Below, piece after piece: positions 10,049 through 30,259 of a DNA stretch of 30,259 bases (its first letter is position 1; each line of letters starts with the position of its first letter). This DNA is from a virus: the IMG/VR virus record IMGVR_UViG_3300034418_007450, positions 1 through 30,259 of that record, one strand, 5' to 3'. A program made the position numbers and the translations under genes. Under the pieces are notes generated by a model. The model saw only the letters and a list, made by a program, of their open reading frames with translations. It made no database searches and was not told the DNA's origin.

Positions 10049-11713
10049 ATGTCACAAATTCAATCTCTTTTAGAGTCTGCTGGTGAAGGTTGGAAAAACC
10101 TCCAAAGCGACGCTGCTAGATTGGCTAACAAGTGGGAAAAGACAGGTTTATTAGAAGGTCTCGGTAGCGAGATTAATAAGAACAACATGTCTTTAATCCT
10201 TGAGAACCAAGCTAAGCAATTAGTAGTTGAGCAATCATCAACTGGTGGTTCAGCTAATTTCACAGTAGGTACAGGTGAGCAGTGGGCAGGCATCGCCCTC
10301 CCATTAGTTCGTAAGGTATTCGGTCAGATCGCTGCTAAAGAATTCGTTTCTGTACAGCCAATGAACTTACCTTCAGGTCTTGTATTCTATTTAGACTTCC
10401 AGTACGGTGATAATAAAAACCCATTCACACAGGGCGAATCACTTTACGGTACTAAGAATTCTGGTGCTTACCCATTCGAAACTGATGCCTCTAACTTAGG
10501 TGCAGTAAACACAGGTGGTTTATACGGTGCTGGTAGATTTACTTATTCTACTAACCAGTTTTCTTCTTCAGCTACAACAATGACTGTTGCTAGTTCAGGT
10601 TCAAACCAGGACATTAACTTCGACTCAAGATTAACTGCTTCTTTAGAGGCTGATGAGTTACACGTAGTTACTTTCCCATTATCAGCTATCCCTAACTATG
10701 ACCCAGAAGCAGTACGTGGATTCGTATTAGTTTCAGGTTCAACTGTTGGTGCTGATAACTTAGTAATGGCTTTAACTAAAGTAGTTGGTAATAACATCCA
10801 ATTCGTAGTTTCTGCTTCTGACGGTGTTATCACACAGGGCAACAACGCTATTGTATACTACCAAAAGCAAACTACAATGTCTCCTTACGAAGTAGGTGAT
10901 TTCGAAGCTGGTAACGACTATGCTTACCCTAACTCATTATCTCAAACTGACATCGACATCCCTGAGATCAACATTCAGATGAGAAGTGAGGCTATCGTAG
11001 CCAAGACTAAGAAGTTAAGAGCTGTTTGGACTCCTGAGTTCGCACAAGATCTTAACGCTTACCAAGCTCTTGACGCTGAAGCTGAAGTAACTAACATTAT
11101 GAGCGAGTACATTTCATTAGAAATCGACCTCGAGATCCTCGAAATGTTAATCAACGACGCTGCAGCTGGTACAGAGTACTGGTCAGCTCAAAACAACCGC
11201 CAACTCAACGCCGCTGGTACTGAGTTTACAGTAGACGCTTCTGGTTTCTACAATACACAAGGTGGTTGGTTCCAAACTTTAGGAACTAAGATCCAGAAGT
11301 TATCTAACAAGATTCACCAGTTAACTCTTAGAGGTGGTGCAAACTTTATGGTAATTTCTCCTGCTGTAGCTACTATCCTCGAGTCAATCCCTGGATACGC
11401 TTCTACTTCAGACGGTGATGTAACTAAAAACTATGCCTTCGGTGTTCAGAAAGCTGGTTCATTAAACAACAGAATGGATGTTTATAAGAACCCATACATG
11501 AACGAAAACTTAATCTTATTAGGTTACAGAGGTTCACAGTTCTTAGAGTCTGGTGCTGTATTTGCTCCATACATTCCGTTAATCATGACTCCGCTTATCT
11601 ACGATCCAGATACATTTACTCCACGTAAAGGTCTCTTAACTAGATACGCTAAGAAGATGATTCGTCCAGAATTCTACGCTAAATTATATGTAAACGGTTT
11701 AAATACCCTTTAA
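10049..11713 (+). CDS. 23: Major capsid protein (T4 gp23-like)
   Basis: A 554-aa protein (T4 gp23 is 521 aa) that forms the hexamers of the head shell with an HK97-type fold. Seen: a helical N-terminal propeptide region (about 1-61), then WAGIALPLVRKVFGQIAAKE, VSVQPMNLPSGLVFYLDFQY, the long insertion, FMVISPAVATILESIPG, and a C-terminal stretch of the type GAVFAPYIPLIMTPLIYDPD with TRYAKKMIRPEF. The propeptide offers several L/I-x-E sites for gp21: LLE9, LLE36 and ILE52. T4 gp23 is cut after Glu65, so removal of roughly 50-60 residues is expected. Codons look optimised for high expression (many CTC, AAC, TAC and GGT compared with neighbours). No Shine-Dalgarno; A-rich before the ATG. Ends at a strong terminator. 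Confidence 0.97.
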   Translation: MSQIQSLLESAGEGWKNLQSDAARLANKWEKTGLLEGLGSEINKNNMSLILENQAKQLVVEQSSTGGSANFTVGTGEQWAGIALPLVRKVFGQIAAKEFVSVQPMNLPSGLVFYLDFQYGDNKNPFTQGESLYGTKNSGAYPFETDASNLGAVNTGGLYGAGRFTYSTNQFSSSATTMTVASSGSNQDINFDSRLTASLEADELHVVTFPLSAIPNYDPEAVRGFVLVSGSTVGADNLVMALTKVVGNNIQFVVSASDGVITQGNNAIVYYQKQTTMSPYEVGDFEAGNDYAYPNSLSQTDIDIPEINIQMRSEAIVAKTKKLRAVWTPEFAQDLNAYQALDAEAEVTNIMSEYISLEIDLEILEMLINDAAAGTEYWSAQNNRQLNAAGTEFTVDASGFYNTQGGWFQTLGTKIQKLSNKIHQLTLRGGANFMVISPAVATILESIPGYASTSDGDVTKNYAFGVQKAGSLNNRMDVYKNPYMNENLILLGYRGSQFLESGAVFAPYIPLIMTPLIYDPDTFTPRKGLLTRYAKKMIRPEFYAKLYVNGLNTL

Positions 11714-12579: not shown

Positions 12580-13083
12580 ATGGCAAATAACTGCGTTAAA
12601 ACCCCAGCTACGGGTTGCTTAGAAGTAACTATTCAAGAATCCATTATTCTTCCTAACTATAACGTTCAGGAATCATATAACACTTTTACAGTATGTGGAA
12701 TCAATAATTACGTTACAAGAACTGAAGTTATTGATTATAGATGGAGTGGCTCAGGTATTGGTATTATTTCATTCGTAGATTCTAAATCAGAACAAACCCC
12801 AGGTTCATTTGTAAATTCGGATGTTAAGTATATTAGAATTACTAATTTCCCAACAAGTGATAAATTTGCTAGTATTCATTGTATCAAAGATAATGATGAA
12901 TCTGTAACATTTAAAGTAGAACCTGGAAAATCTATTATCTTGAGTAATGATGATCTAGAAATCCCCTCAGCTCTTACTTCTTCATTTTCATATATGACTG
13001 AAATTAAAGCAATGGCAGGTGGAGGTGGTGATACTACCTATTCGGGTTCAATTCAAATTGAATATGTTGTAGCTTCTATTTGA
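12580..13083 (+). CDS. Beta-rich protein of unknown function, possible virion decoration
   Basis: A 167-aa protein with no transmembrane segment or signal peptide. It is rich in Ser, Thr, Ile and Val with alternating patterns (VKYIRITNFPTSDKFASIHC; SVTFKVEPGKSIILSNDD), which suggests an all-beta fold such as a jelly roll or Ig-like domain. Four cysteines (C4, C13, C38 and C101 by my count) are unusual for the neighbourhood. It ends GSIQIEYVVASI, a plausible last strand. It has its own ATATTTATA motif and its own terminator, so it is a single-gene unit and perhaps strongly expressed. A small decoration or tail protein fits the context, but I recognise no family. Confidence 0.72.
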   Translation: MANNCVKTPATGCLEVTIQESIILPNYNVQESYNTFTVCGINNYVTRTEVIDYRWSGSGIGIISFVDSKSEQTPGSFVNSDVKYIRITNFPTSDKFASIHCIKDNDESVTFKVEPGKSIILSNDDLEIPSALTSSFSYMTEIKAMAGGGGDTTYSGSIQIEYVVASI

Positions 13084-16239: not shown

Positions 16240-18108
16240 GTGGCCCAAATTAATATTACACAAACCGGAACATCAGGAGTAGCAACCCCCAATAGTGGTG
16301 TTGTAGCTGTATTTTCTAATTCAGCCGATAATGGTGCTTTATACTATAGATTTTCAGATGGAACTTATGCCCCAGTAGGTAGTACTAGTGGTGGTGGGGG
16401 CACTAATGGCACATCAGGTTCTTCTGGTACATCAGGTTCTTCTGGTACTTCAGGTACAAACGGTTCAAGCGGAACTTCAGGTACAAACGGAACATCAGGT
16501 ACAAATGGTACTTCAGGTACAAACGGTGTAGATGGTTCAAGCGGAACATCAGGAACATCAGGTTCTTCAGGTGTTGACGGTACTTCAGGTTCATCTGGTA
16601 CTTCAGGAGAGAGTGGAACTTCAGGTTCTTCAGGAACTTCAGGAGAAAGTGGAACTTCAGGTTCTTCAGGAACTTCAGGAGAGAGCGGAACAAGCGGTTC
16701 ATCTGGTACATCAGGTGAGAGCGGAACTTCAGGTTCATCTGGTACTTCAGGAGAGAGTGGAACTTCAGGCACAAACGGAACTTCAGGTACAAACGGCTCA
16801 AGCGGAACTTCAGGCACAAACGGAACTTCAGGCACAAATGGTGCAGACGGCTCAAGCGGAACTTCAGGTACAAACGGCTCAAGCGGAACTTCAGGCACAA
16901 ACGGAACTTCAGGCACAAATGGTGCAGACGGCTCAAGCGGAACTTCAGGCACAAACGGCTCATCTGGTTCATCTGGTTCTTCAGGTACAGACGGTGCAGA
17001 TGGTTCAAGCGGAACTTCAGGTACAAACGGTACTTCAGGTACAAACGGTACTTCAGGTTCAAACGGCTCATCTGGTTCATCTGGTTCTTCAGGTACCTCA
17101 GGTGTAGGTACAGACGGTTCATCTGGTTCATCTGGTTCTTCAGGTACAGACGGTTCATCAGGCTCATCAGGTACTTCTGGTATAAATGGTACTTCTGGTA
17201 CTTCAGGTACAAACGGTACTTCAGGTACAAACGGTACTTCAGGTTCAAACGGCTCATCTGGTTCATCTGGTTCTTCAGGTACCTCAGGTGTAGGTACAGA
17301 CGGTTCATCAGGTACTTCAGGTACCTCAGGTGTAGGTACAGACGGTTCATCTGGTTCATCAGGTACTTCTGGTGTCGACGGTTCATCAGGTACTTCTGGT
17401 ATCAACGGTTCATCAGGTACATCTGGAGCTGATGGTTCATCTGGTACATCAGGTACTTCAGGAACTGGAGGAGGTATTTCAACAGTTTATACTAACGTAG
17501 TTAGATACGAATACTCATCAGGTAATGATTCAGCTCAACTAATGTCATCCGGTACATTATTTGGAGGATTGAGTTGGACTCGTTCAGGTACTACTTTGAC
17601 AGTAACATCAACTGCTCACGGTTTGACAACTGGTGATTATGTAGTACTAAGAGGATTCAACGTTGATTATTTTCACGTTTCAATCACATCAACTGGTGCT
17701 AATACATTTACTTGTACAGTAACTGATACAGGTGCAACTAGTGGTACAGCAGGTGCTTACATTCCTGTATTGAATGCTTCTACAATTAGTGATTCAGCTA
17801 TTGAAATTGAAGCCCCATCAGCAGGAAATGTTCAGTTGATTTCAATGCAAGTTTATATTGATAACTCAGAAACAAACCCTAAATCATTTACAGTGCCAGC
17901 AAATGCACTTACTAATGGTGCAGGAGGTAATAGTTCACTCACCTCCAGAATCCCACCAGTATTTATTGCTTGGAACGTAGCAGGTGCTAACTCTTCTAGA
18001 ATTGGTACAGGATCCTTAACTTTTGTAACAGGTGGTGCTGCAAACGTTTATGGTTTATCAGGTGGTTTAGATATTTTTGGCTCAGTAATGATGACATTTA
18101 ATTTCTAA
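16240..18108 (+). CDS. Collagen-like fibre protein 1 (Gly-X-Y repeats, HGL-type C-terminal domain)
   Basis: A 622-aa protein; the only GTG start in the set (GTG GCC CAA ATT), supported by the ATATTTATA motif and the lack of a closer ATG. Residues 1-50 (MAQINITQTGTSGVATPNSG) are a small beta part ending in YYRFSDGTYAPVGS, like other fibre attachment tips. Residues 54-409 are Gly-X-Y repeats of GTS, GSS, GTN, GES and GAD type with almost no proline. There are five tandem 36-bp units and three one-residue register breaks at GVGTDG. Residues 410-622 are a globular beta domain with LTVTSTAHGLTTGDYVVLRG, the 'aHGLttGd.V' motif seen in phage tail and fibre proteins. Probably a trimeric fibre with a C-terminal tip. 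A terminator follows. Confidence 0.88.
   Translation: MAQINITQTGTSGVATPNSGVVAVFSNSADNGALYYRFSDGTYAPVGSTSGGGGTNGTSGSSGTSGSSGTSGTNGSSGTSGTNGTSGTNGTSGTNGVDGSSGTSGTSGSSGVDGTSGSSGTSGESGTSGSSGTSGESGTSGSSGTSGESGTSGSSGTSGESGTSGSSGTSGESGTSGTNGTSGTNGSSGTSGTNGTSGTNGADGSSGTSGTNGSSGTSGTNGTSGTNGADGSSGTSGTNGSSGSSGSSGTDGADGSSGTSGTNGTSGTNGTSGSNGSSGSSGSSGTSGVGTDGSSGSSGSSGTDGSSGSSGTSGINGTSGTSGTNGTSGTNGTSGSNGSSGSSGSSGTSGVGTDGSSGTSGTSGVGTDGSSGSSGTSGVDGSSGTSGINGSSGTSGADGSSGTSGTSGTGGGISTVYTNVVRYEYSSGNDSAQLMSSGTLFGGLSWTRSGTTLTVTSTAHGLTTGDYVVLRGFNVDYFHVSITSTGANTFTCTVTDTGATSGTAGAYIPVLNASTISDSAIEIEAPSAGNVQLISMQVYIDNSETNPKSFTVPANALTNGAGGNSSLTSRIPPVFIAWNVAGANSSRIGTGSLTFVTGGAANVYGLSGGLDIFGSVMMTFNF
16399..17466 (+). repeat. 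Gly-X-Y repeat region of fibre 1
   Basis: About 1.07 kb coding for residues 54-409. The X and Y positions are mostly Ser and Thr, with Asn, Asp, Glu and Val markers. Blocks such as GTNGADGSSGTSGTNGSSG occur in near-duplicate, and the block around GVGTDGSSGSSG recurs. Confidence 0.95.
16606..16785 (+). repeat. Five tandem 36-bp units (GESGTSGSSGTS)
   Basis: GES codons start at 16606, 16642, 16678, 16714 and 16750, exactly 36 bp apart. The units differ at third positions (GGA/GGT, AGT/AGC, TCT/TCA), and the fifth has GTN in place of GSS. Confidence 0.93.
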
Positions 18109-18205: not shown

Positions 18206-21200
18206 ATGGCCCACGACCAACTCTTTTACGGAGCCTTATCTAACGTTACCCCTATTGCATCTGGAAGCAATAGTTACGTTCGAGTTAGAGGTGATTACAA
18301 CACGGCTTCAAAAACAATTGAAAATGTCTCAAACGAAGGCTCATATCTCAACATAGATTATGTACGCCCTGGTCAAACTTTAGTAGCTAGCGGTCCTTTT
18401 TCAGCAGGTACTGTTGTAGTTTCGGTTGATACCGGAGCTGCTACTATTACAGTGGCAGATTTCCCGGCTACCACCGCTACTAACGTAGTAACTAGAATCT
18501 CCCCAGCACCTGGTGAGTACTATATAGCCTCAGCGTCTTTCCTAGACCCTAACACACAAGTTCCTATTAGTACTAAAAATATTACTGGTAGTAACGACCC
18601 AGAATATCAATCAAGCTTATCCCCTATTTACACAGTTATTGGTCCAGCTCGTGTGCCAGGAGGATCATCACCAATTGAGGGTGAATATCATTTATATAAT
18701 ATTAAAGAAGTTTATTATAGAAACGGTGCTGGTACAGAAGCATCTTTTTATATTGGATGGGGTGAAGACGGAACAGAATCAGAAACAGGTACTGTATTAT
18801 TAGGAACATCGAACCAACAAGTAGGTATTGTTGCTGTTACCCCTTCACAATCATTAGCCCCTATTTTTAGCTCTAGACTCTCAGGTCTAACTAGTTTACC
18901 TGTTGGTACTGATATAGCAGCATATCAAGTAGCAGTAACTGCTTTCTTTGATAACCTAAGCACTTCAGGTGGTGCTGGTTCAGCTGGTTCATCTGGTACA
19001 TCAGGTTCAAGTGGATCATCAGGCACTTCAGGCGAATCAGGTACATCAGGTACTTCAGGTGAATCTGGTTCTTCTGGTTCATCAGGTACTTCAGGTGAAT
19101 CTGGCTCATCAGGTTCTTCAGGTACTTCAGGTGAATCTGGCTCATCAGGTTCATCAGGTACATCGGGTTCATCAGGAGTAAGTGGCGTAGACGGCACTTC
19201 AGGTACTTCAGGTTCATCAGGTTCATCAGGTGAATCTGGTTCTTCTGGTTCATCAGGTACTTCAGGTTCAAGCGGCTCATCTGGCACATCTGGCTCATCT
19301 GGTTCATCAGGAACTAGTGGCTCGTCAGGCGTTTCAGGCGTAGACGGCACTTCAGGTACTAGTGGCTCATCAGGTTCATCAGGTACTTCAGGATCTTCAG
19401 GCTCCTCAGGTACAAGCGGTTCATCTGGTACCTCAGGTTCATCAGGTTCATCGGGAACTAGCGGATCTTCAGGTGTTTCTGGTGTAGACGGCACTTCGGG
19501 TACTAGTGGCTCATCAGGTTCATCAGGTACTTCAGGATCTTCAGGCTCCTCAGGTACAAGTGGTTCATCTGGTTCATCTGGTACATCTGGTTCATCTGGT
19601 TCATCAGGAACTAGTGGCTCGTCAGGCGTTTCAGGCGTAGACGGCACTTCCGGCACATCTGGTTCATCAGGTTCCTCAGGTTCATCAGGCTCATCAGGTT
19701 CATCTGGTTCCTCAGGCTCATCAGGTACTTCAGGTTCATCAGGTTCATCAGGTACATCTGGTTCTTCAGGTGTTTCTGGTGTAGACGGTACTTCAGGTAC
19801 CTCAGGTTCAAGTGGCTCATCAGGTACTTCAGGCTCATCAGGTTCATCAGGAACTAGTGGTTCATCTGGTTCATCAGGAACTTCAGGTTCAAGCGGCTCA
19901 TCTGGTACATCTGGATCATCAGGTGTAAGTGGTGTAGATGGTACTTCTGGTACTTCAGGCTCATCAGGCTCATCAGGAACTTCAGGCTCATCAGGTAGTT
20001 CAGGCACATCCGGTTCTTCAGGCTCATCAGGTACTTCAGGTTCATCAGGCTCATCAGGTACATCTGGTTCTTCAGGTGTTTCAGGCGTAGACGGAACTTC
20101 AGGTACTTCAGGTTCAAGCGGTTCATCAGGCACATCTGGTTCATCAGGTAGTTCAGGTACATCTGGTTCATCAGGTTCATCTGGTACATCAGGTTCAAGT
20201 GGCTCATCAGGTACTTCAGGATCTTCTGGTGTTTCTGGTGTAGACGGTACTTCAGGTACATCTGGTTCATCAGGTTCATCAGGTACTTCAGGCTCATCAG
20301 GTTCATCAGGAACTAGTGGTTCTTCAGGTTCATCAGGCACTTCAGGTTCAAGCGGCTCATCTGGTACATCAGGTTCATCAGGTGTTTCTGGTGTAGACGG
20401 CACTTCTGGTACATCTGGTTCATCAGGTTCATCTGGTTCATCAGGTTCATCAGGAACTAGTGGTTCTTCAGGTTCATCAGGCACCTCAGGTTCAAGCGGC
20501 TCATCTGGTACATCAGGTTCATCTGGTGTTTCAGGTGTAGATGGTACTTCTGGCACATCTGGTTCATCAGGTTCTTCTGGTTCATCAGGTTCATCAGGTA
20601 CTTCAGGCTCATCAGGTTCATCTGGTACTAGCGGTTCATCAGGTTCATCTGGTACATCTGGATCATCAGGTGTAAGTGGTGTAGACGGTACTTCAGGCAC
20701 ATCTGGCTCATCAGGCTCATCTGGTTCATCAGGTTCATCAGGAACTTCAGGCTCATCAGGTTCATCTGGTACTAGCGGTTCATCTGGTACTAGCGGTTCA
20801 TCTGGTTCATCTGGTTCAAGCGGTTCTTCAGGAACTAGCGGTTCATCAGGCTCATCAGGTACTTCTGGTTCATCTGGTTCATCAGGTACTTCAGGTTCAT
20901 CAGGTTCATCAGGAACATCAGGTTCGTCAGGAACTTCAGGCTCATCAGGTTCGTCAGGTACTTCAGGCTCATCAGGCGTAAGCGGTGTAGACGGTACTTC
21001 AGGTACATCTGGCTCTTCAGGCTCATCTGGTACTTCAGGTTCATCAGGTTCATCAGGAACATCAGGTTCAAGTGGTTCATCAGGTACATCTGGCTCATCA
21101 GGCTCATCAGGAACATCAGGCTCATCAGGAGTTTCAGGTGTAGACGGTACTTCTGGCACATCTGGTTCATCAGGTTCTTCTGGTTCATCTGGTTCATCAG

Positions 21201-24200
21201 GAACTTCAGGCTCATCAGGTTCATCTGGTACAAGTGGTTCATCAGGTTCATCAGGAACTTCAGGCTCATCAGGTGTAAGCGGTGTAGACGGTACTTCAGG
21301 CACATCTGGTTCATCAGGTTCATCAGGCACTTCAGGCTCATCAGGTTCATCTGGCACATCAGGTTCAAGCGGTTCATCAGGTACATCTGGCTCATCAGGT
21401 TCATCAGGAACTAGTGGCTCGTCAGGTGTTTCAGGCGTAGACGGTACTTCAGGCACATCTGGCTCATCAGGCTCATCAGGTACTTCAGGATCTTCTGGTT
21501 CATCAGGTACATCTGGATCATCTGGTTCATCAGGTACAAGCGGTTCATCTGGTACAAGTGGCTCATCAGGTACAAGCGGTTCATCAGGCTCATCAGGTAC
21601 ATCAGGTTCGTCTGGTTCATCTGGTACAAGTGGCTCATCAGGTAGTTCAGGTTCGTCTGGCACATCTGGATCATCTGGTTCATCAGGTACAAGTGGTTCA
21701 TCAGGCTCATCTGGTACATCAGGTTCATCTGGTGTTTCTGGTGTAGACGGCACTTCAGGTACTTCTGGTTCATCTGGTTCATCAGGCACTTCAGGTAGCT
21801 CAGGTTCATCAGGTACTAGCGGATCTTCAGGTTCGTCAGGCACTTCTGGTAGCTCAGGCTCATCTGGTACATCAGGTTCATCTGGTGTTTCTGGCGTAGA
21901 TGGTACTTCAGGCACATCTGGCTCATCAGGCACATCTGGCTCATCAGGTACATCTGGTTCATCAGGTTCTTCTGGTTCATCTGGTTCATCTGGTTCATCT
22001 GGTACATCTGGTTCATCTGGTTCTTCAGGCACATCTGGTTCTTCAGGTACTAGCGGTTCATCAGGTACTTCAGGATCTTCAGGTTCATCTGGTACATCAG
22101 GTTCTTCTGGCTCTTCAGGCACATCTGGTTCTTCAGGTTCATCTGGTACATCTGGTAGCTCAGGCTCATCAGGCACTTCAGGTTCATCAGGTGTAAGTGG
22201 TGTAGACGGCACTTCAGGAACTTCAGGTTCAAGCGGTTCATCAGGTACATCTGGCTCATCTGGTTCATCAGGTACTAGTGGTTCATCAGGCACTTCAGGT
22301 AGCTCAGGTTCATCAGGTACATCAGGTTCTTCAGGTGTTTCAGGCGTAGACGGTACTTCAGGCACATCTGGTTCATCAGGTTCATCAGGTACTTCAGGAT
22401 CTTCAGGTTCATCAGGTACTAGCGGATCTTCAGGCTCATCAGGCACTTCAGGTTCAAGTGGTTCATCAGGTACTTCAGGCTCATCAGGCGTAAGCGGTGT
22501 AGACGGTACTTCAGGTACATCTGGCTCTTCAGGCTCATCTGGTTCATCAGGCTCATCAGGTACTAGCGGTTCATCAGGCTCATCAGGTACTTCAGGTAGT
22601 TCAGGTTCATCAGGCACATCTGGTTCTTCAGGTGTAAGCGGTGTAGACGGTACTTCTGGTACTTCAGGTTCATCTGGTACAAGTGGTTCATCAGGTACTT
22701 CAGGTTCATCTGGTTCTTCAGGCACTAGCGGATCTTCAGGTTCATCTGGTACATCTGGCTCATCAGGCTCATCAGGTACTTCAGGATCTTCAGGTTCATC
22801 AGGTACTTCAGGTTCATCAGGAACATCAGGATCTTCAGGCTCATCAGGTACTTCAGGCTCATCAGGCACTAGCGGATCTTCAGGTTCTTCAGGCACTAGC
22901 GGATCTTCAGGTTCTTCAGGTACTAGCGGATCTTCAGGCGTTTCAGGCGTAGACGGAACATCAGGAACATCAGGCTCTTCAGGCTCTTCAGGTACTTCAG
23001 GAAGTTCAGGTTCATCCGGAACATCAGGATCTTCAGGCTCATCAGGTACCTCAGGCTCATCAGGTAGCTCAGGCACATCTGGTTCATCTGGTACTTCAGG
23101 TTCATCTGGTACTTCAGGCTCTTCAGGTACATCTGGCTCATCTGGATCATCTGGTACATCTGGTTCATCAGGAACATCAGGTAGTTCAGGCTCATCAGGT
23201 ACATCAGGAAGCTCTGGTTCATCAGGCACATCTGGTTCTTCAGGCGTAAGTGGTGTAAACGGTACTTCAGGTACAAGTGGTTCATCTGGTACTAGTGGTT
23301 CAAGCGGTACTTCAGGATCTTCAGGTTCATCTGGTTCGTCTGGTTCATCTGGTACATCTGGTTCGTCTGGTTCATCAGGAACAAGTGGATCATCAGGTAC
23401 AAGCGGTTCATCAGGAACTAGCGGTTCATCAGGTTCATCTGGTACATCTGGATCATCTGGTTCATCAGGTACTTCAGGAAGTTCAGGTTCATCTGGTACA
23501 AGCGGTTCATCAGGAACATCAGGCTCATCAGGCTCATCAGGCACTTCAGGCTCATCAGGCGTAAGTGGTGTAAACGGTACTTCAGGTACAAGTGGTTCAT
23601 CTGGTACTAGTGGTTCAAGCGGTTCATCTGGAACTAGCGGTTCATCAGGTTCATCAGGAACATCGGGCTCATCAGGCTCATCAGGTACATCTGGATCATC
23701 AGGCGTTTCAGGAGTAGATGGTACTTCAGGTACTAGCGGCTCATCAGGAACATCAGGTTCTTCAGGAACTAGTGGTTCATCAGGTACAAGCGGCTCATCA
23801 GGTTCTTCAGGTACATCAGGCAGTTCAGGCTCAAGCGGTACTTCAGGAAGTTCAGGTACTTCAGGTTCTTCGGGAACTAGTGGCTCAAGTGGTACTTCAG
23901 GCAGTTCAGGTTCATCAGGCACATCTGGTAGCTCAGGTTCTTCAGGTACGTCTGGTTCATCAGGTACTAGCGGTTCATCAGGCTCATCAGGTACAAGTGG
24001 ATCATCAGGCGTAAGCGGTGTAAACGGTACTTCAGGTACAAGCGGTTCATCAGGTACTTCAGGTAGCTCAGGCTCATCTGGTACAAGTGGTTCATCAGGT
24101 TCATCAGGTACGTCTGGATCAAGCGGTACAAGCGGTTCATCAGGTACTAGTGGTTCATCAGGCACAAGCGGAACAAGCGGTTCATCAGGTTCAAGCGGTA

Positions 24201-27200
24201 CTTCAGGTAGCTCAGGCTCATCTGGTACAAGTGGTTCATCTGGTACTTCAGGAAGTTCTGGTTCATCAGGAACTAGCGGTTCATCAGGTTCATCAGGAAC
24301 TTCAGGTTCTTCTGGTGTAAGCGGTGTAAACGGTACTTCAGGTACATCTGGTTCATCAGGAACAAGTGGTTCAAGCGGTACTTCAGGCTCATCTGGTTCT
24401 TCAGGTACTTCAGGTTCAAGCGGTTCATCAGGAACAAGCGGTTCTTCAGGCTCATCAGGCACATCTGGATCAAGCGGTACAAGCGGTTCATCAGGTACAA
24501 GCGGTTCATCAGGAACTTCAGGTTCATCTGGTTCATCAGGCTCATCTGGTTCATCAGGCACTTCAGGTTCATCAGGAACTAGCGGAAGTTCGGGCTCATC
24601 TGGTACATCTGGTTCATCAGGTGTTTCAGGCGTAAACGGAACTTCAGGTACTTCAGGTTCATCAGGTACTTCAGGATCTTCAGGTTCATCAGGTACAAGC
24701 GGTTCATCAGGCTCATCTGGTACATCTGGTTCATCAGGTACAAGCGGATCTTCAGGTACTAGTGGTTCATCAGGAACTTCAGGTTCAAGTGGCTCATCAG
24801 GCTCATCTGGTTCATCAGGCACTTCAGGCTCATCTGGTACATCAGGTTCAAGTGGTACATCCGGAAGTTCAGGTTCATCAGGAACTAGCGGAAGTTCAGG
24901 TTCATCAGGCACATCTGGTTCATCAGGCGTAAGCGGTGTAAACGGTACTTCAGGTACTTCAGGTTCATCAGGTACTTCAGGATCTTCAGGTTCATCAGGT
25001 ACTAGCGGATCATCAGGTTCATCTGGTACTAGTGGTTCATCAGGTACTAGCGGTTCATCTGGTACTAGTGGTTCATCAGGAACTTCAGGTTCAAGTGGCT
25101 CATCAGGCTCATCTGGTTCATCAGGTACTAGTGGTTCATCAGGAACTTCAGGTTCATCAGGTACTTCAGGATCTTCAGGTTCATCAGGAACTAGTGGAAG
25201 TTCAGGCTCATCAGGTACATCTGGTTCATCAGGTGTTTCAGGCGTAAATGGTACTTCAGGAACATCAGGTTCATCAGGTTCTTCAGGAACAAGCGGTTCA
25301 TCAGGTAGTTCAGGAACATCAGGTTCATCAGGAACAAGTGGTTCATCTGGTTCATCAGGTAGCTCAGGCTCATCTGGTACAAGCGGATCAAGCGGTACAA
25401 GCGGATCAAGCGGTACAAGCGGTTCATCAGGAACTAGCGGGTCAAGCGGTTCATCAGGTAGTTCAGGTTCATCTGGTACTAGTGGTTCAAGTGGCACTTC
25501 AGGATCTTCAGGTTCATCAGGTACATCTGGTTCATCAGGCGTAAGTGGTGTAAACGGTACTTCAGGTACATCTGGTTCATCAGGTTCATCAGGCACTTCA
25601 GGTTCATCAGGTACAAGTGGTTCAAGCGGTACTTCAGGTTCTTCAGGTTCATCTGGTTCATCAGGTTCATCAGGAACTAGCGGTTCTTCAGGAACTAGCG
25701 GTTCTTCAGGAACTAGTGGCTCATCTGGTTCATCAGGTAGCTCAGGCTCATCTGGTACAAGTGGTTCATCAGGTACTAGTGGTTCATCAGGAACATCAGG
25801 TAGTTCAGGTTCATCAGGAACTAGCGGTTCATCAGGCGTAAGCGGTGTAAATGGTACTTCTGGAACATCTGGTTCATCTGGTACAAGCGGTTCATCTGGC
25901 TCATCTGGTAGTTCAGGTTCATCAGGCACTTCAGGTTCATCTGGTACTTCAGGTTCATCTGGCACATCTGGTTCATCAGGTTCAAGTGGTACTTCAGGAA
26001 CTAGCGGCTCTTCAGGCACAAGCGGTTCATCAGGAACAAGTGGTTCATCAGGCTCATCTGGTAGTTCAGGTTCATCTGGTACTAGTGGTTCATCAGGAAC
26101 TAGCGGTTCATCAGGATCATCAGGTACAAGTGGATCATCAGGCGTAAGCGGTGTAAACGGCACTTCAGGAACATCAGGTTCATCAGGTACTAGCGGCTCT
26201 TCAGGTACAAGCGGTTCATCAGGTTCATCAGGTAGCTCAGGCTCATCTGGTACAAGCGGATCAAGCGGTACTTCAGGTTCGTCAGGAACTAGCGGATCAT
26301 CAGGTTCTTCAGGTTCATCTGGTTCATCTGGTACAAGCGGTTCAAGCGGTACAAGCGGATCTTCAGGTACAAGTGGTTCAAGCGGTTCATCTGGTTCATC
26401 AGGTTCAAGCGGTACTTCAGGTACCAGTGGTTCATCAGGTACTAGCGGATCTTCAGGTACTAGCGGATCTTCAGGTACTAGCGGTTCAAGTGGTTCATCT
26501 GGTTCATCAGGCTCATCTGGTACAAGCGGATCAAGCGGTACTTCAGGTTCATCAGGAACTAGTGGTTCATCTGGTTCATCAGGAACTTCAGGCTCATCAG
26601 GCGTAAGCGGTGTAAACGGTACTTCAGGTACATCAGGTTCATCAGGAACAAGTGGATCATCAGGAACAAGCGGTTCATCAGGTTCTTCAGGTAGCTCAGG
26701 TTCATCTGGTACAAGCGGATCAAGCGGCACTTCAGGTTCATCAGGTACTAGCGGTTCAAGCGGCACAAGTGGATCATCAGGTTCATCAGGTTCATCAGGT
26801 TCAAGCGGTACTTCTGGATCATCAGGTACTAGCGGTTCTTCAGGAACTAGTGGTTCATCTGGAACAAGTGGATCAAGCGGATCATCAGGTACAAGTGGAT
26901 CATCAGGCGTAAGCGGTGCTAACGGAACTTCAGGAACATCTGGTTCATCTGGAACAAGTGGTTCATCAGGTTCAAGCGGTACTTCAGGTACAAGCGGTTC
27001 ATCAGGTTCAAGCGGTACTTCAGGTACAAGCGGTTCATCTGGTACGTCAGGTTCATCTGGTACTTCAGGTTCATCAGGAACATCAGGTTCATCTGGTTCA
27101 TCAGGTACAAGTGGTAACTCAGGTACGTCTGGTTCATCTGGAACAAGCGGATCAAGTGGCACAAGTGGATCTTCAGGTTCATCAGGTACATCTGGTTCAT

Positions 27201-28039
27201 CAGGCGTAAGCGGTGCTAACGGAACTTCAGGAACATCTGGTTCATCTGGAACAAGTGGTTCATCAGGCTCATCAGGTACAAGTGGTACAGCTACTATTAC
27301 TAATAACGCTGATAATAGAGTTATTACAGGTGGTACTGGTGCAAACCTAAATGGTGAAGCTAACCTAACATTTGATGGAACAACATTGACTGTAACAGGT
27401 GGTATCACAGCTACAATTGGAACAGGTACTGATAACTCAGTAGTAGTTAAAAACGCAACAAACCAACTTGTAACAGACGAAATTGATTCTCGTGTTTGGG
27501 GTTCAAGCTTAGTAGACGGTTCAGGTGTTGCTACTTATGTAACATATTGGTCAGATGCTAATACAGTTACTGGTGAGGCTGCGTTTACTTATAACGCTAC
27601 TACAAACCTATTGACAGTAGATAATATCTCAGGATTTACAGCTGCAGGTAGTATTGATATGAATAGTTTTGATATTACCAACATACAAACTCTCCAAGCT
27701 GCAGAAAAGAACTTCGATATTCCTCACCCAACTAAAGAAGGATGGAGATTACGTTACTCAGTTCTTGAAGGCCCAGAAAGAGGTGTTTATGTTCGTGGCA
27801 AAGTAGAAGGCGAAGGCGTAATTACCCTCCCAGACTACTGGATCGGATTAGTATACGAAGATAGTATTACAGTTGATCTAACCCCAATCGGTAAAGCGTG
27901 CACTCACTACGTAATTAGCGCTAACAGTACACAAATCAACGTAGGTTGTGAGTGTGGAAATGTCAACGCCTACTACGTGGTATTTGCAGAAAGAAAAGCA
28001 GCAGAACCAGTATGGGTTGAGTATCAAGTAGTACAATAA
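18206..28039 (+). CDS. Giant collagen-like fibre protein 2 (3277 aa)
   Basis: A 9.8-kb gene. Residues 1-254 are a non-repetitive N-terminal domain (SYVRVRGDYNTASKTIENVS; EYHLYNIKEVYYRNGAGTEA), probably the virion attachment end. Residues 255-3027 are about 924 Gly-X-Y triplets, nearly all GSS and GTS, with GVSGVD, GVSGVN or GVSGAN markers and almost no proline. Residues 3028-3277 are the tip: fibre-type beta repeats (NLTFDGTTLTVTGG; GSIDMNSFDITNIQ), then from residue 3169 NFDIPHPTKEGWRLRYSVLE, GPERGVYVRGK, LPDYWIGLVYEDSITVDLTP and YYVVFAERK. This HPTK...LEGPE...VY.RG...LPDYW...LTPIG domain recurs in fibre proteins of marine T4-like phages as I remember them. The glycine register is unbroken through 8.3 kb, which argues for selection and against misassembly. 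No proline means a classical stable collagen helix is uncertain; a polyglycine-II-like bundle or a flexible glycosylated rod are alternatives. Confidence 0.92.
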   Translation: MAHDQLFYGALSNVTPIASGSNSYVRVRGDYNTASKTIENVSNEGSYLNIDYVRPGQTLVASGPFSAGTVVVSVDTGAATITVADFPATTATNVVTRISPAPGEYYIASASFLDPNTQVPISTKNITGSNDPEYQSSLSPIYTVIGPARVPGGSSPIEGEYHLYNIKEVYYRNGAGTEASFYIGWGEDGTESETGTVLLGTSNQQVGIVAVTPSQSLAPIFSSRLSGLTSLPVGTDIAAYQVAVTAFFDNLSTSGGAGSAGSSGTSGSSGSSGTSGESGTSGTSGESGSSGSSGTSGESGSSGSSGTSGESGSSGSSGTSGSSGVSGVDGTSGTSGSSGSSGESGSSGSSGTSGSSGSSGTSGSSGSSGTSGSSGVSGVDGTSGTSGSSGSSGTSGSSGSSGTSGSSGTSGSSGSSGTSGSSGVSGVDGTSGTSGSSGSSGTSGSSGSSGTSGSSGSSGTSGSSGSSGTSGSSGVSGVDGTSGTSGSSGSSGSSGSSGSSGSSGSSGTSGSSGSSGTSGSSGVSGVDGTSGTSGSSGSSGTSGSSGSSGTSGSSGSSGTSGSSGSSGTSGSSGVSGVDGTSGTSGSSGSSGTSGSSGSSGTSGSSGSSGTSGSSGSSGTSGSSGVSGVDGTSGTSGSSGSSGTSGSSGSSGTSGSSGSSGTSGSSGSSGTSGSSGVSGVDGTSGTSGSSGSSGTSGSSGSSGTSGSSGSSGTSGSSGSSGTSGSSGVSGVDGTSGTSGSSGSSGSSGSSGTSGSSGSSGTSGSSGSSGTSGSSGVSGVDGTSGTSGSSGSSGSSGSSGTSGSSGSSGTSGSSGSSGTSGSSGVSGVDGTSGTSGSSGSSGSSGSSGTSGSSGSSGTSGSSGTSGSSGSSGSSGSSGTSGSSGSSGTSGSSGSSGTSGSSGSSGTSGSSGTSGSSGSSGTSGSSGVSGVDGTSGTSGSSGSSGTSGSSGSSGTSGSSGSSGTSGSSGSSGTSGSSGVSGVDGTSGTSGSSGSSGSSGSSGTSGSSGSSGTSGSSGSSGTSGSSGVSGVDGTSGTSGSSGSSGTSGSSGSSGTSGSSGSSGTSGSSGSSGTSGSSGVSGVDGTSGTSGSSGSSGTSGSSGSSGTSGSSGSSGTSGSSGTSGSSGTSGSSGSSGTSGSSGSSGTSGSSGSSGSSGTSGSSGSSGTSGSSGSSGTSGSSGVSGVDGTSGTSGSSGSSGTSGSSGSSGTSGSSGSSGTSGSSGSSGTSGSSGVSGVDGTSGTSGSSGTSGSSGTSGSSGSSGSSGSSGSSGTSGSSGSSGTSGSSGTSGSSGTSGSSGSSGTSGSSGSSGTSGSSGSSGTSGSSGSSGTSGSSGVSGVDGTSGTSGSSGSSGTSGSSGSSGTSGSSGTSGSSGSSGTSGSSGVSGVDGTSGTSGSSGSSGTSGSSGSSGTSGSSGSSGTSGSSGSSGTSGSSGVSGVDGTSGTSGSSGSSGSSGSSGTSGSSGSSGTSGSSGSSGTSGSSGVSGVDGTSGTSGSSGTSGSSGTSGSSGSSGTSGSSGSSGTSGSSGSSGTSGSSGSSGTSGSSGTSGSSGSSGTSGSSGTSGSSGSSGTSGSSGSSGTSGSSGVSGVDGTSGTSGSSGSSGTSGSSGSSGTSGSSGSSGTSGSSGSSGTSGSSGTSGSSGTSGSSGTSGSSGSSGTSGSSGTSGSSGSSGTSGSSGSSGTSGSSGVSGVNGTSGTSGSSGTSGSSGTSGSSGSSGSSGSSGTSGSSGSSGTSGSSGTSGSSGTSGSSGSSGTSGSSGSSGTSGSSGSSGTSGSSGTSGSSGSSGTSGSSGVSGVNGTSGTSGSSGTSGSSGSSGTSGSSGSSGTSGSSGSSGTSGSSGVSGVDGTSGTSGSSGTSGSSGTSGSSGTSGSSGSSGTSGSSGSSGTSGSSGTSGSSGTSGSSGTSGSSGSSGTSGSSGSSGTSGSSGTSGSSGSSGTSGSSGVSGVNGTSGTSGSSGTSGSSGSSGTSGSSGSSGTSGSSGTSGSSGTSGSSGTSGTSGSSGSSGTSGSSGSSGTSGSSGTSGSSGSSGTSGSSGSSGTSGSSGVSGVNGTSGTSGSSGTSGSSGTSGSSGSSGTSGSSGSSGTSGSSGSSGTSGSSGTSGSSGTSGSSGTSGSSGSSGSSGSSGTSGSSGTSGSSGSSGTSGSSGVSGVNGTSGTSGSSGTSGSSGSSGTSGSSGSSGTSGSSGTSGSSGTSGSSGTSGSSGSSGSSGSSGTSGSSGTSGSSGTSGSSGSSGTSGSSGSSGTSGSSGVSGVNGTSGTSGSSGTSGSSGSSGTSGSSGSSGTSGSSGTSGSSGTSGSSGTSGSSGSSGSSGSSGTSGSSGTSGSSGTSGSSGSSGTSGSSGSSGTSGSSGVSGVNGTSGTSGSSGSSGTSGSSGSSGTSGSSGTSGSSGSSGSSGSSGTSGSSGTSGSSGTSGSSGTSGSSGSSGSSGSSGTSGSSGTSGSSGSSGTSGSSGVSGVNGTSGTSGSSGSSGTSGSSGTSGSSGTSGSSGSSGSSGSSGTSGSSGTSGSSGTSGSSGSSGSSGSSGTSGSSGTSGSSGTSGSSGSSGTSGSSGVSGVNGTSGTSGSSGTSGSSGSSGSSGSSGTSGSSGTSGSSGTSGSSGSSGTSGTSGSSGTSGSSGTSGSSGSSGSSGSSGTSGSSGTSGSSGSSGTSGSSGVSGVNGTSGTSGSSGTSGSSGTSGSSGSSGSSGSSGTSGSSGTSGSSGTSGSSGSSGSSGSSGTSGSSGTSGSSGTSGSSGSSGSSGSSGTSGTSGSSGTSGSSGTSGSSGTSGSSGSSGSSGSSGTSGSSGTSGSSGTSGSSGSSGTSGSSGVSGVNGTSGTSGSSGTSGSSGTSGSSGSSGSSGSSGTSGSSGTSGSSGTSGSSGTSGSSGSSGSSGSSGTSGSSGTSGSSGTSGSSGTSGSSGSSGTSGSSGVSGANGTSGTSGSSGTSGSSGSSGTSGTSGSSGSSGTSGTSGSSGTSGSSGTSGSSGTSGSSGSSGTSGNSGTSGSSGTSGSSGTSGSSGSSGTSGSSGVSGANGTSGTSGSSGTSGSSGSSGTSGTATITNNADNRVITGGTGANLNGEANLTFDGTTLTVTGGITATIGTGTDNSVVVKNATNQLVTDEIDSRVWGSSLVDGSGVATYVTYWSDANTVTGEAAFTYNATTNLLTVDNISGFTAAGSIDMNSFDITNIQTLQAAEKNFDIPHPTKEGWRLRYSVLEGPERGVYVRGKVEGEGVITLPDYWIGLVYEDSITVDLTPIGKACTHYVISANSTQINVGCECGNVNAYYVVFAERKAAEPVWVEYQVVQ
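18968..27286 (+). repeat. 8.3-kb Gly-X-Y array with 153-bp higher-order repeat
   Basis: Base unit is 9 bp (one Gly-X-Y triplet). The next level is GTS-GSS-GSS (27 bp) early and GTS-GSS (18 bp) late. The highest level is set by 36 GVSG[VA][DN] markers: 23 VD, 11 VN and 2 AN. Marker spacings measured from the Val/Ala codon are 144, 153, 297, 306, 315 or 459 bp. Single spacings dominate up to about 22.6 kb and doubled ones after it. Confidence 0.95.
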
Positions 28040-28063: not shown

Positions 28064-30259
28064 ATGGCTAAAAACGTTCAAATAGTTCCAGCTTCAGGAA
28101 GCCTAGATTTCCAAGATAGTGATGTAAGTAAAATCACTATGGAATTAGATGCAGGCAATGGTAAATTAGTTACCAAAGCAGGTGCAGTTACTCTTTTAGA
28201 AGTAAGTGACGGTTTAGTAAACGTAGGAAACTCAGCAAAATTAGTATTACCTGTAGTAGCAGGCACCCCTCCAGGTGCCTCTACAGGTGATCTTTGGTTT
28301 GACTCTTCAGCAAATAAATTATCAGTATATGGTAATAGTGGAGTAGCAGCTGGGGGTGGTGCTCAAGGTCCAATCGGTCCACAAGGTCCACAAGGTCCTA
28401 TCGGTCCTAAAGGTAATACAGGCTCTCAAGGTCCTATCGGTCCTAAAGGTAATACAGGCTCTCAAGGCCCACAAGGCCCTATCGGACCTCAAGGTCCAGA
28501 TGGAGCTCAAGGTCCTATCGGTCCTATTGGTCCATTAGGTCCACAAGGTCCTATTGGTGACATAGGTCCACAGGGTCCTCAAGGTCCAATTGGTAATATT
28601 GGTCCAATTGGTCCTGTTGGAGATAAAGGTGCTATTGGTCCAATTGGTCCAATCGGTCCACAAGGTCCACAAGGTCCTAAAGGTAACATAGGTCCAATTG
28701 GTCCTAAAGGAGATACAGGTGCTCAAGGTCCTATTGGTGACATTGGTCCACAAGGTCCACAAGGTCCTAAAGGTAACCAAGGCCCAATCGGCCCTAAAGG
28801 AGATACAGGTGCTCAAGGTCCTATTGGTCCAATTGGTCCTCAGGGTCCAATCGGCCCTAAAGGAAATCAAGGTCCTATCGGTCCTAAAGGTAATACTGGA
28901 GCACAAGGTCCTATTGGCCCTATCGGACCACAAGGCCCAGATGGAGCTCAAGGTCCTATTGGTAACATTGGCCCAATTGGTCCTATCGGTCCTCAAGGTC
29001 CACAAGGTCCTATTGGCCCACAAGGTCCAATTGGTAATATTGGTCCAATTGGTCCTGTTGGAGATAAAGGTGCTATTGGTCCAATTGGTCCAATCGGTCC
29101 ACAAGGTCCACAAGGTCCTATTGGTAATATTGGTCCACTCGGTCCTAAGGGTAATACTGGTGCTCAAGGTCCAATTGGTAATATTGGTCCTATTGGTCCT
29201 AAAGGTGTAATTGGAGCAATTGGTCCAATCGGTCCTAAAGGTAATATAGGTCCATTAGGTCCTAAAGGTAATACAGGAGCTCAAGGTCCTATTGGTACTA
29301 TTGGTCCTATAGGTCCAAAAGGAGTTCAAGGTAATATTGGTCCTATCGGTCCTAAAGGTAATACTGGAGCACAAGGTCCTATTGGCCCACAAGGTCCTAT
29401 TGGTCCTAAAGGTGTAATTGGTGCTATTGGTCCTATTGGTCCTAAAGGTAATATTGGTCCATTAGGTCCTAAAGGTAATACTGGATCACAGGGCCCTATT
29501 GGTAATATAGGCCCAATCGGTCCTAAAGGAGTTCAAGGTAATATTGGTCCATTAGGTCCTAAAGGTAATACTGGATCACAAGGCCCTAGAGGTAATATTG
29601 GTCCTATTGGTCCTAAAGGTAACCAAGGTCCTATTGGTCCTATCGGTCCAAAAGGTACTGCAGGTACTTCACCTATTGGTCCTCAGGGCCCAATCGGTCC
29701 AAAAGGTACTGCAGGTACTTCACCAATTGGCCCTATCGGTCCACAAGGTCCTATAGGCCCAGGCGGTAGTTCTCCTATTGGTCCAATCGGCCCACAAGGT
29801 CCAATCGGTCCAGGTGGTTCATCTCCTATTGGTCCTATCGGCCCACAAGGTCCAATTGGTAACTCTCCAATCGGCCCACAAGGTCCTATTGGTCCTAAAG
29901 GTACTGCAGGTACTTCACCTATTGGTCCTATTGGTCCAATCGGTCCTAAAGGAACTGCAGGTTCATCCCCAATCGGTCCTATAGGTCCACAAGGTCCTAT
30001 TGGCCCCGGAGGTTCATCTCCTATCGGTCCAATTGGTCCACAAGGTCCAATCGGTAACTCTCCAATTGGTCCTCAGGGTCCAATCGGTCCTAAAGGTACA
30101 GCCGGTACTTCACCTATTGGTCCTATCGGTCCACAAGGTCCTATTGGCCCAGGAGGTTCATCTCCTATCGGTCCAATCGGTCCACAAGGTCCAATTGGTC
30201 CTGGAGGTAGTTCTCCAATTGGTCCTATTGGTCCAATCGGTCCTAAAGGTACAGCAGGT
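28064..30259 (+). CDS. Collagen-like fibre protein 3, proline-rich Gly-Pro-X type (3' end outside window)
   Basis: Open from the ATG at 28064 to the window end, 732 codons without a stop. Residues 1-98 are an N-terminal domain with [20 protein letters not shown], the 'tGDLW.D...n.L.vY' motif found at the start of many phage fibre proteins. From residue 99 it is a classical collagen pattern, mostly [15 protein letters not shown] and GDK. Pro is almost always in X and Lys, Gln or Ile in Y, which suits a non-hydroxylated triple helix. Residues 99-536 run without interruption. After that the register is broken repeatedly by a four-residue xSPI insert (GTSPIG, GSSPIG, GNSPIG). The composition is quite unlike fibres 1 and 2, although the genes are adjacent. 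The C-terminal tip is not in the window. Confidence 0.9.
28580..28678 (+). repeat. 99-bp perfect direct repeat, copy A
   Basis: Codes for [20 protein letters not shown] and the following [14 protein letters not shown]. It is identical base for base to 29021-29119, exactly 441 bp (49 triplets) downstream. Confidence 0.93.
29021..29119 (+). repeat. 99-bp perfect direct repeat, copy B
   Basis: Second copy of 28580-28678. Flanking triplets differ, so identity stops sharply on both sides, as expected for a recent recombination or gene-conversion tract. Confidence 0.93.

Follow-up and report, generated by a model that had tools for sequence, protein, structure and literature searches.

Does the regular repeat inside the giant fibre gene of this phage contig belong to the DNA, in the manner of a satellite, or to the protein that the gene encodes? 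The window, by which we mean the whole 30,259-base stretch of this virus record, was described in a first-pass annotation as holding a satellite-like hierarchy within a protein gene, probably built by unequal recombination under selection for glycine register. Our results favour another reading, to which we assign a probability of roughly 60%: the gene would encode a tail-fibre-type protein of great length, from a T4-like myovirus, with a collagen-like shaft in which a repeat of about 50 residues is selected as protein while recombination proceeds in a 9-bp register. An apparent DNA satellite can, in other words, be a protein-level pattern.

The giant fibre gene and its surroundings

The window carries T4-like myovirus head genes (terminase, portal gp20, protease, gp23 and a PhoH-like ATPase), among which the major capsid protein gene gp23 at 10049-11713 on the plus strand (Pfam Gp23, E 4.3e-74) gives the context. 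By capsid protein, the closest cultured relatives are Flavobacterium phage immuto (55.2%) and Microcystis phage Mel-JY01 (48.9%). Three consecutive collagen-like genes, all on the plus strand, follow downstream of the head genes, at 16240-18108, at 18206-28039 and from 28064 to the contig end. The first codes for 622 amino acid residues, and its N-terminal part contains a Ser/Thr-rich GXX array (Pfam Collagen, 156.2 bits), and the third, of the Gly-Pro-Ile/Gln/Lys type (28064-30259; Pfam Collagen, 212.8 bits), runs off the contig. Internal repeats of 90, 117, 195 and 207 bp occur in this third gene.

The middle gene, a single ORF of 3277 codons for amino acids with an ATG start, reads as a tail-fibre-type protein in which a collagen-like shaft, mainly of Ser and Thr, lies between an N-terminal domain and a C-terminal domain of phage type. 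The N-terminal non-collagen domain (18206-18967, plus strand; 254 residues) is conserved in contigs L002 (98% identity) and L004 (63%) and probably serves in virion attachment. It had no Pfam or PHROG match at E 0.001, and AlphaFold2 with an alignment of three sequences (A2) gave an unusable model (mean pLDDT 29.9). The shaft consists of 925 unbroken Gly-X-Y triplets, or 2775 residues, at 18968-27292 on the plus strand; it begins where the array had been placed earlier and continues 6 bp past the end given then, 27286. The triplets are GSS (507), GTS (337), GVS (36), GVD (23), GVN (11), GES (5), GAN (2) and four singletons, such that position X holds S 508 times, T 338, V 70, E 5 and others 4, and position Y holds S 886 times, D 23, N 13 and A 3, Thr never being found at Y. 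The main regular departure from Ser/Thr is the stud, which combines two branched hydrophobic residues with Asp or Asn. Serine codons of the AGY type at Y are found in 120 of the 337 GTS triplets and in 44 of the 507 GSS triplets of 18968-27292, where adjacent codons are not independent.

Pfam Collagen (PF01391) scored 85.1 and 84.9 bits on two 152-residue pieces of the array, against a cutoff of 27.2. The gene thus has the long unbroken Gly-X-Y run, the PF01391 score above cutoff and the non-collagen domains at both ends that are expected of a phage collagen-like tail fibre; the Pro- or charge-rich X and Y positions usual in such fibres, which are not a strict criterion, are absent. When an array piece was used to query the PDB by sequence, it brought up collagens and 8zxl ('spindlefibril', 'axialfibril'); because the alignments match through the glycine register, no conclusion was based on them. 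A 2827-residue antisense ORF at 18925-27408 on the minus strand is no evidence of a gene, because TTA, CTA and TCA are absent from the array at that offset; its coding role is unsupported and it is a by-product of the frame.

The C-terminal domain (27293-28036, plus strand), a probable tip, matches phrog_17490, of unknown function (E 7.3e-38 on the piece 27287-28036), and could be aligned with eight relatives (A1). AlphaFold2 with these nine sequences reached a mean pLDDT of 47.4, with confidence at residues ~170-235 alone and no nameable fold; Foldseek with this model found no match at E <= 0.001, and a PDB profile search with the domain gave nothing below E 0.048. The domain is homologous to part of the 'putative tail fiber-like protein' of immuto (MW353176; 50.8% identity over 53% of the query). 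The two phages have a similar gene order of terminase, portal, protease, capsid, PhoH and then fibre, and the immuto protein, of 587 residues, has no long Gly-X-Y array in its translation.

As in the side tail fibres EPclA and EPclB, according to the available text of PMC3368898, a Gly-X-Y rod lies here between N- and C-terminal phage fibre domains. The rods described there measure 111 to 322 residues, in contrast with 2775, and are rich in Pro and charges instead of Ser/Thr; among their relatives, rod lengths typically differ by multiples of three residues, and the periodicity described in that text concerns the coiled coil of the prophage proteins, not their collagen rod. Since the present shaft has no Pro and few charges, unlike the prophage collagens in that text, any stable triple helix in it is putative. 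The same composition, with X and Y almost exclusively Ser and Thr, would suit a Ser/Thr-rich, possibly O-glycosylated protein that forms an extended or polyglycine-II-like brush or bundle instead of a triple-helical rod, with the studs as hydrophobic bundling contacts. We consider this unlikely given that a strict Gly at each third residue over 925 triplets is a collagen signature and that the Pfam Collagen score lies well above its cutoff, although that score probably stems mostly from the Gly register.

Marker spacing and the protein cassette

The 36 GVSG[VA][DN] markers that the first-pass annotation had reported from 19187 to 27215 were all found, in agreement with the twelve positions that it wrote out, and the 35 gaps between them have the sizes that it had described: 306 bp (13 gaps), 153 bp (10), 144 bp (8), 297 bp (2), 315 bp (1) and 459 bp (1). 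That all are multiples of 9 bp follows trivially from the triplet register, which does not explain why they are multiples of 16-17 triplets. Gap coherence is 0.986, compared with at most 0.587 when 36 markers were placed at random 2000 times, and in-phase coherence reaches 0.981 at 16.9 triplets (95% of the null, 0.424). The anticipated peaks of DNA autocorrelation are present but low (0.706 at 306 bp, 0.686 at 153 bp and 0.685 at 144 bp, compared with ~0.64-0.67 at adjacent multiples of 9), and Tandem Repeats Finder likewise recovers a period of 153 over 19037-27277, with 70% matches. For whole triplets, autocorrelation is highest at lag 34 (0.566) and is also high at lags 83 (0.532) and 100 (0.524), which correspond to about 5 and 6 units, and at lags 17 (0.510), 3 (0.509) and 16 (0.506), chance being 0.435.

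The array changes along its length. In its N-terminal part (18968-22949, plus strand), 17 of 21 gaps measure 16-17 triplets, the local pattern is of 3 triplets and all markers read GVSGVD. In the C-terminal part (22950-27292, plus strand), gaps are mostly of 33-35 triplets, markers are mostly GVSGVN with GVSGAN as the final two, and the pattern becomes one of 2 triplets; the 3-triplet sub-period extends across about the first two thirds of the array before giving way to 2 triplets toward the C-terminal end. The hierarchy that had been proposed therefore exists as a 9-bp register, a sub-period of 3 and then 2 triplets, a unit of 16 or 17 triplets and, in the C-terminal half, a unit of 33-35 triplets. 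It does not hold as homogenised DNA, identity between copies being ~0.7 at the DNA level.

Each GVS triplet begins 12 bp before the Val/Ala codon by which its marker is listed, and offsets are counted in triplets from GVS. A marker-centred cassette of 11 triplets, from offset -6 to +4, is first encountered at 19121-19219 (plus strand) and recurs at all 36 markers. All 36 copies agree at offsets -4 to 0 and +2 to +4, and 35 of them at offsets -6 and -5; offset +1 is GVD (23), GVN (11) or GAN (2), whereas Ser and Thr are freely mixed at offsets -7, -8, +5 and +6. Scaled from 0 (background) to 1 (fixed), Ser/Thr conservation in the window is 0.99 in the core versus 0.13 in the spacer, and the third base of core codons, scored as purine or pyrimidine, yields 0.06 for Gly and 0.30 for X. 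The cores of L003 and L004, two of the phage arrays considered below, are likewise fixed as protein and loose in codons: Ser/Thr 0.98, Gly third base -0.16 and X third base 0.17 in L003 (spacer Ser/Thr, 0.16), and 0.97, -0.18 and 0.23, respectively, in L004, for which we used the 39 of 49 markers that have no neighbour inside 11 triplets. The L003 core is shorter (-1 to +5), and that of L004 extends from -2 to +3 with different letters; it is not sharply bounded, as the L004 spacer is itself fairly conserved (0.48). Because core limits were set on the same data, the evidence resides in the contrast between amino acids and codons, not in the limits. Selection on the glycine register alone cannot account for a choice between Ser and Thr that is fixed within the cassette and open elsewhere.

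The same looseness appears over whole units. With V for GVS, D for GVD, t for GTS and s for GSS, nine of ten 17-triplet units read exactly V-D-t-t-s-s-t-s-s-t-s-s-t-s-s-t-s, and these nine canonical units, identical in protein, have a codon identity of 0.557 compared with 0.498 for random codons drawn by array codon usage. Scrambling is incomplete in the cassette, where the third base is kept at offsets -6, -3, +2 and +4 for X (0.62 to 0.87) and at -6, -3 and +4 for Gly (0.61 to 1.00). GVD and GVN use GTA for Val in all 34 copies, and the next Thr codon is ACT in 35 of 36, other codons being loose; the DNA or RNA next to the marker may itself be constrained.

Turnover of the array DNA

Exact repeats in the array reach 78 bp at most. 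Pairs of exactly matching 40-mers number 336, compared with 17 (sd 12) in codon shuffles, and nine of the 13 exact repeats of at least 47 bp are displaced by 144, 297, 306, 315 or 459 bp. We conclude that the repeat units arose by duplication, for the most part in the distant past. Selection acting against repeats in the DNA can be discarded, exact repeats being in excess rather than in deficit.

This excess is also what would be left by a recently amplified coding satellite, in which unequal crossing-over of 153- or 306-bp units generated the periodicity as a trace of growth and protein selection acted on glycine register alone. Contig L002, with an exact repeat of 120 bp at a distance of 108 bp and an indel of exactly 153 bp relative to the window, points the same way. 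We nevertheless judge this history improbable, since units of identical protein are written in nearly random codons, which counts against it over most of the array, since in the window Ser/Thr varies freely in the spacer but is fixed in the cassette, and since other phages have different markers yet similar spacing. Of the properties of a higher-order-repeat satellite, the array has the periodicity of a multimeric unit and lacks the high DNA identity between copies (0.706 at 306 bp): paralogous units encode the same protein with largely scrambled codons, and are therefore not a homogenised satellite.

A collapsed or scrambled repeat is a natural concern for a repetitive stretch of a metagenome contig. 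Such an assembly artefact is highly unlikely in this case because the longest exact repeat is below common read length and because 1378 bp are identical in contig L014; in addition, L002 is colinear at 96.7% identity and the ORF is open throughout.

Comparison with L002 reveals how the array DNA changes. Outside the arrays, the two contigs differ by 33 mismatches in 7,631 columns, a count that leaves out 12.5-13.5, 16.5-17.5 and the region beyond 19.0 kb. The fourfold sites that differ number 4 of 734 in six flanking genes and 42 of 609 in the array. The 96.7% identity comes from an unconstrained DNA alignment over the common 2.1-2.3 kb of the array, and the differences there are clustered to a degree that none of 1000 permutations equalled. 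Eight array indels, of 9, 9, 9, 9, 153, 9, 135 and 108 bp, remained unchanged under three gap settings. Copy-number change in steps of 153 or 306 bp had been expected between relatives; one step of 153 bp was found and none of 306 bp, the others being 9 bp (five times), 108 bp and 135 bp. All eight are multiples of 9 bp, i.e., whole-triplet length differences of the kind known from BclA, which indicates that register-keeping duplication and deletion occur. The exact repeats at unit displacements agree with this; what does not stand is the likening to an ordinary DNA satellite. Indels of 90, 9 and 54 bp also separate the array of the adjoining gene at 16240-18108 from its L002 counterpart (97.6% identity in a global alignment of 16.5-17.5 kb). 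The L002 array additionally contains a non-collagen insert of ~105 residues (L002 9831-10145) that is absent in the window.

Protection of the cassette between the two contigs was not significant: five of 11 amino-acid changes fall in cassettes, which is not significantly below expectation (Fisher p 0.16), and alignment may explain these five since all lie at most 4 triplets from an indel. For five tracts of at least four changes relative to L002, the best paralogous match as a gene conversion donor generally improved little or not at all on synonymous controls; these tracts may have come from a third phage by exchange. The gene at 12580-13083, which is not one of the six flanking genes, differs from L002 at 10 of 71 fourfold sites and by 29 synonymous codons between near-identical neighbours, as if exchanged with another phage; it has no Pfam match.

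The last 1378 bp of the array in L014 are those identical to the window; the two diverge after ~27487, L014 having a different, longer C-terminus. Together, the L002 indels and the L014 end imply that shaft length changes by whole triplets and that the tip can differ behind an identical shaft end. At L014 1380-3994, an array end identical to that of the window is followed by the other C-terminus, an apparent tip exchange just behind the shaft. The 810 residues of that C-terminus had no Pfam match (E up to 0.1) and a single weak PHROG match of unknown function.

Spacing in other phages and a possible ruler

Arrays with at least three G[VIL]SG[VILA][DN] markers and at least two in-frame gaps were sought in the window and in L001-L340 minus four duplicates. 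Among the matches listed, those of the window, L002, L003, L004, L014, L174, L202 and L115 qualified, and spacing was tested on seven, L014 being left out as a repeat of the window. The L004 array is complete, with 938 triplets and GISGID markers; that of L003, with GVSGVN markers, counts at least 922 triplets and is cut by the contig end. Marker letters differ between phages (GVSGVN, GISGID, GISGIN), and spacing stays near 17n triplets. Gaps measure 31-37 and 50-54 triplets in L174; 18-21, 33-38, 50, 53 and, once, 63 in L202; and 30, 34 and 32 in L115, whose period is not significant alone. Pooled, the 36 gaps of these three arrays have a coherence of 0.738 at 17.4 triplets, compared with 0.415 for 95% and 0.561 for the maximum of 5000 draws of uniform random gaps. 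Near the N-terminus of L004, nine short gaps alternate between 4 and 12-13 triplets; taken singly they are off the step, neighbours summing to 16 or 17, as if this region had two studs per unit. L013, which has the common C-terminal domain, shows lags of 33, 18, 16 and 50, with GTA/GSA triplets replacing markers.

The gap widens from N- to C-terminus in five of the seven arrays tested (p 0.01 to 4e-10), with Spearman coefficients of 0.62 in the window, 0.69 in L003, 0.76 in L004, 0.76 in L174 and 0.77 in L202. No gradient was seen in the first 2.1 kb of the L002 array (rho -0.02), and the three gaps of L115 are not decisive. This thinning may be structural, or it may reflect how the array grew, its young units lying near the N-terminus.

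It is quite conceivable that the 17n spacing and its gradient were inherited from one ancestral array and are not kept by structural need. L003 and L004 have the C-terminal domain in common with the window, L004 also has the N-terminal domain, and L174 and L115 have neck-region genes in common at 49-58% identity. Against common descent as the whole explanation, L202 has the spacing and no match to six window proteins in the 14.8 of its 110.9 kb that were compared, marker letters vary between arrays, and descent alone would require indels to be rare, whereas sister phages differ by 8 of them in 2.1-2.3 kb.

For the long fibre selected as protein, the following mechanism can be proposed. The N-terminal domain would anchor the fibre, the 925-triplet Gly-X-Ser shaft would span the distance, and the C-terminal tip would bind or fold. 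What we infer for the shaft is its trimeric state, its length and its function: three chains may form a triple helix, as in the E. coli prophage protein EPclA, described in the available text of PMC3368898 as a trimer with a 111-residue Col rod of ~30 nm and a predicted rise of 0.288 nm per residue. Fully triple-helical, 2775 residues would extend over ~0.8 um (~800 nm) at that rise, and a step of 16.8 triplets over ~14.5 nm. The G(V/I)SG(V/I)(D/N) stud with its flanks would then be a structural module placed about every 50 residues (~14.5 nm at 0.288 nm per residue), and we think that studs register or bundle chains or fibres. Recombination or slippage in the 9-bp register would add and remove triplets and whole units, and selection would discard changes that break the glycine register or the stud cassette and hold studs at their step, with the highest density near the base and a thinning toward the tip.

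More tentatively, and with some doubt, ~17 triplets (~50 residues, ~14.5 nm) could be a physical ruler of Ser/Thr collagen-like phage shafts, with hydrophobic-acidic studs at one, two or three steps, graded from base to tip and held by protein selection while recombination rewrites the DNA. Fibre length and stud density would, if so, evolve in whole steps. The D-period orders animal collagen, and a 17-triplet ruler may be likened to it. If the spacing is structural, these phages would offer an example from nature of a collagen design that lacks proline and has its step built in, and a clear setting in which to study how selection keeps a protein pattern over rewritten DNA.

Collagen-like phage fibres and length-variable collagen-like regions are already known. 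BclA of the Bacillus exosporium, and of Clostridioides according to the available text of PMC13188886, similarly has a length-variable collagen-like region between conserved ends. BclA is a bacterial spore protein, whereas the giant fibre belongs to a phage, and the two are likened by description, not by sequence. Judging by the title of a 2003 study by Sylvestre, the length of the collagen-like region of Bacillus BclA reportedly varies filament length. In antireceptors of Streptococcus thermophilus phages, which are of another phage type, collagen-like repeats separate the domains of a host-recognition protein with variable regions, according to the available text of PMC5601072. Among the matches listed from open-licence PubMed Central titles and abstract openings, we found no report of a phage collagen-like fibre equally long or mainly composed of Ser/Thr, nor of a quantised stud spacing common to several phages.

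Ser/Thr arrays of at least 60 triplets were also surveyed in the sequences compared here, once five duplicate loci had been removed. The 116 listed showed no 17-triplet period general to such arrays. The whole-triplet autocorrelation of L174 and L202 is not above null; these two being outside the 26 arrays with a significant period, their spacing belongs to the markers and not to the Ser/Thr pattern. None of the seven bacterial genome arrays in the survey had a significant period. Among the matches listed, the top period exceeded the array's own 95% null in 26 of 116 (~6 expected), and 14 of these 26 significant periods lie at 15-18, 31-36 or 48-54 triplets, which is a broad class. The Gly-Ser/Thr pattern is also matched by L219-L337, which are bacterial genome contigs of varied taxa.
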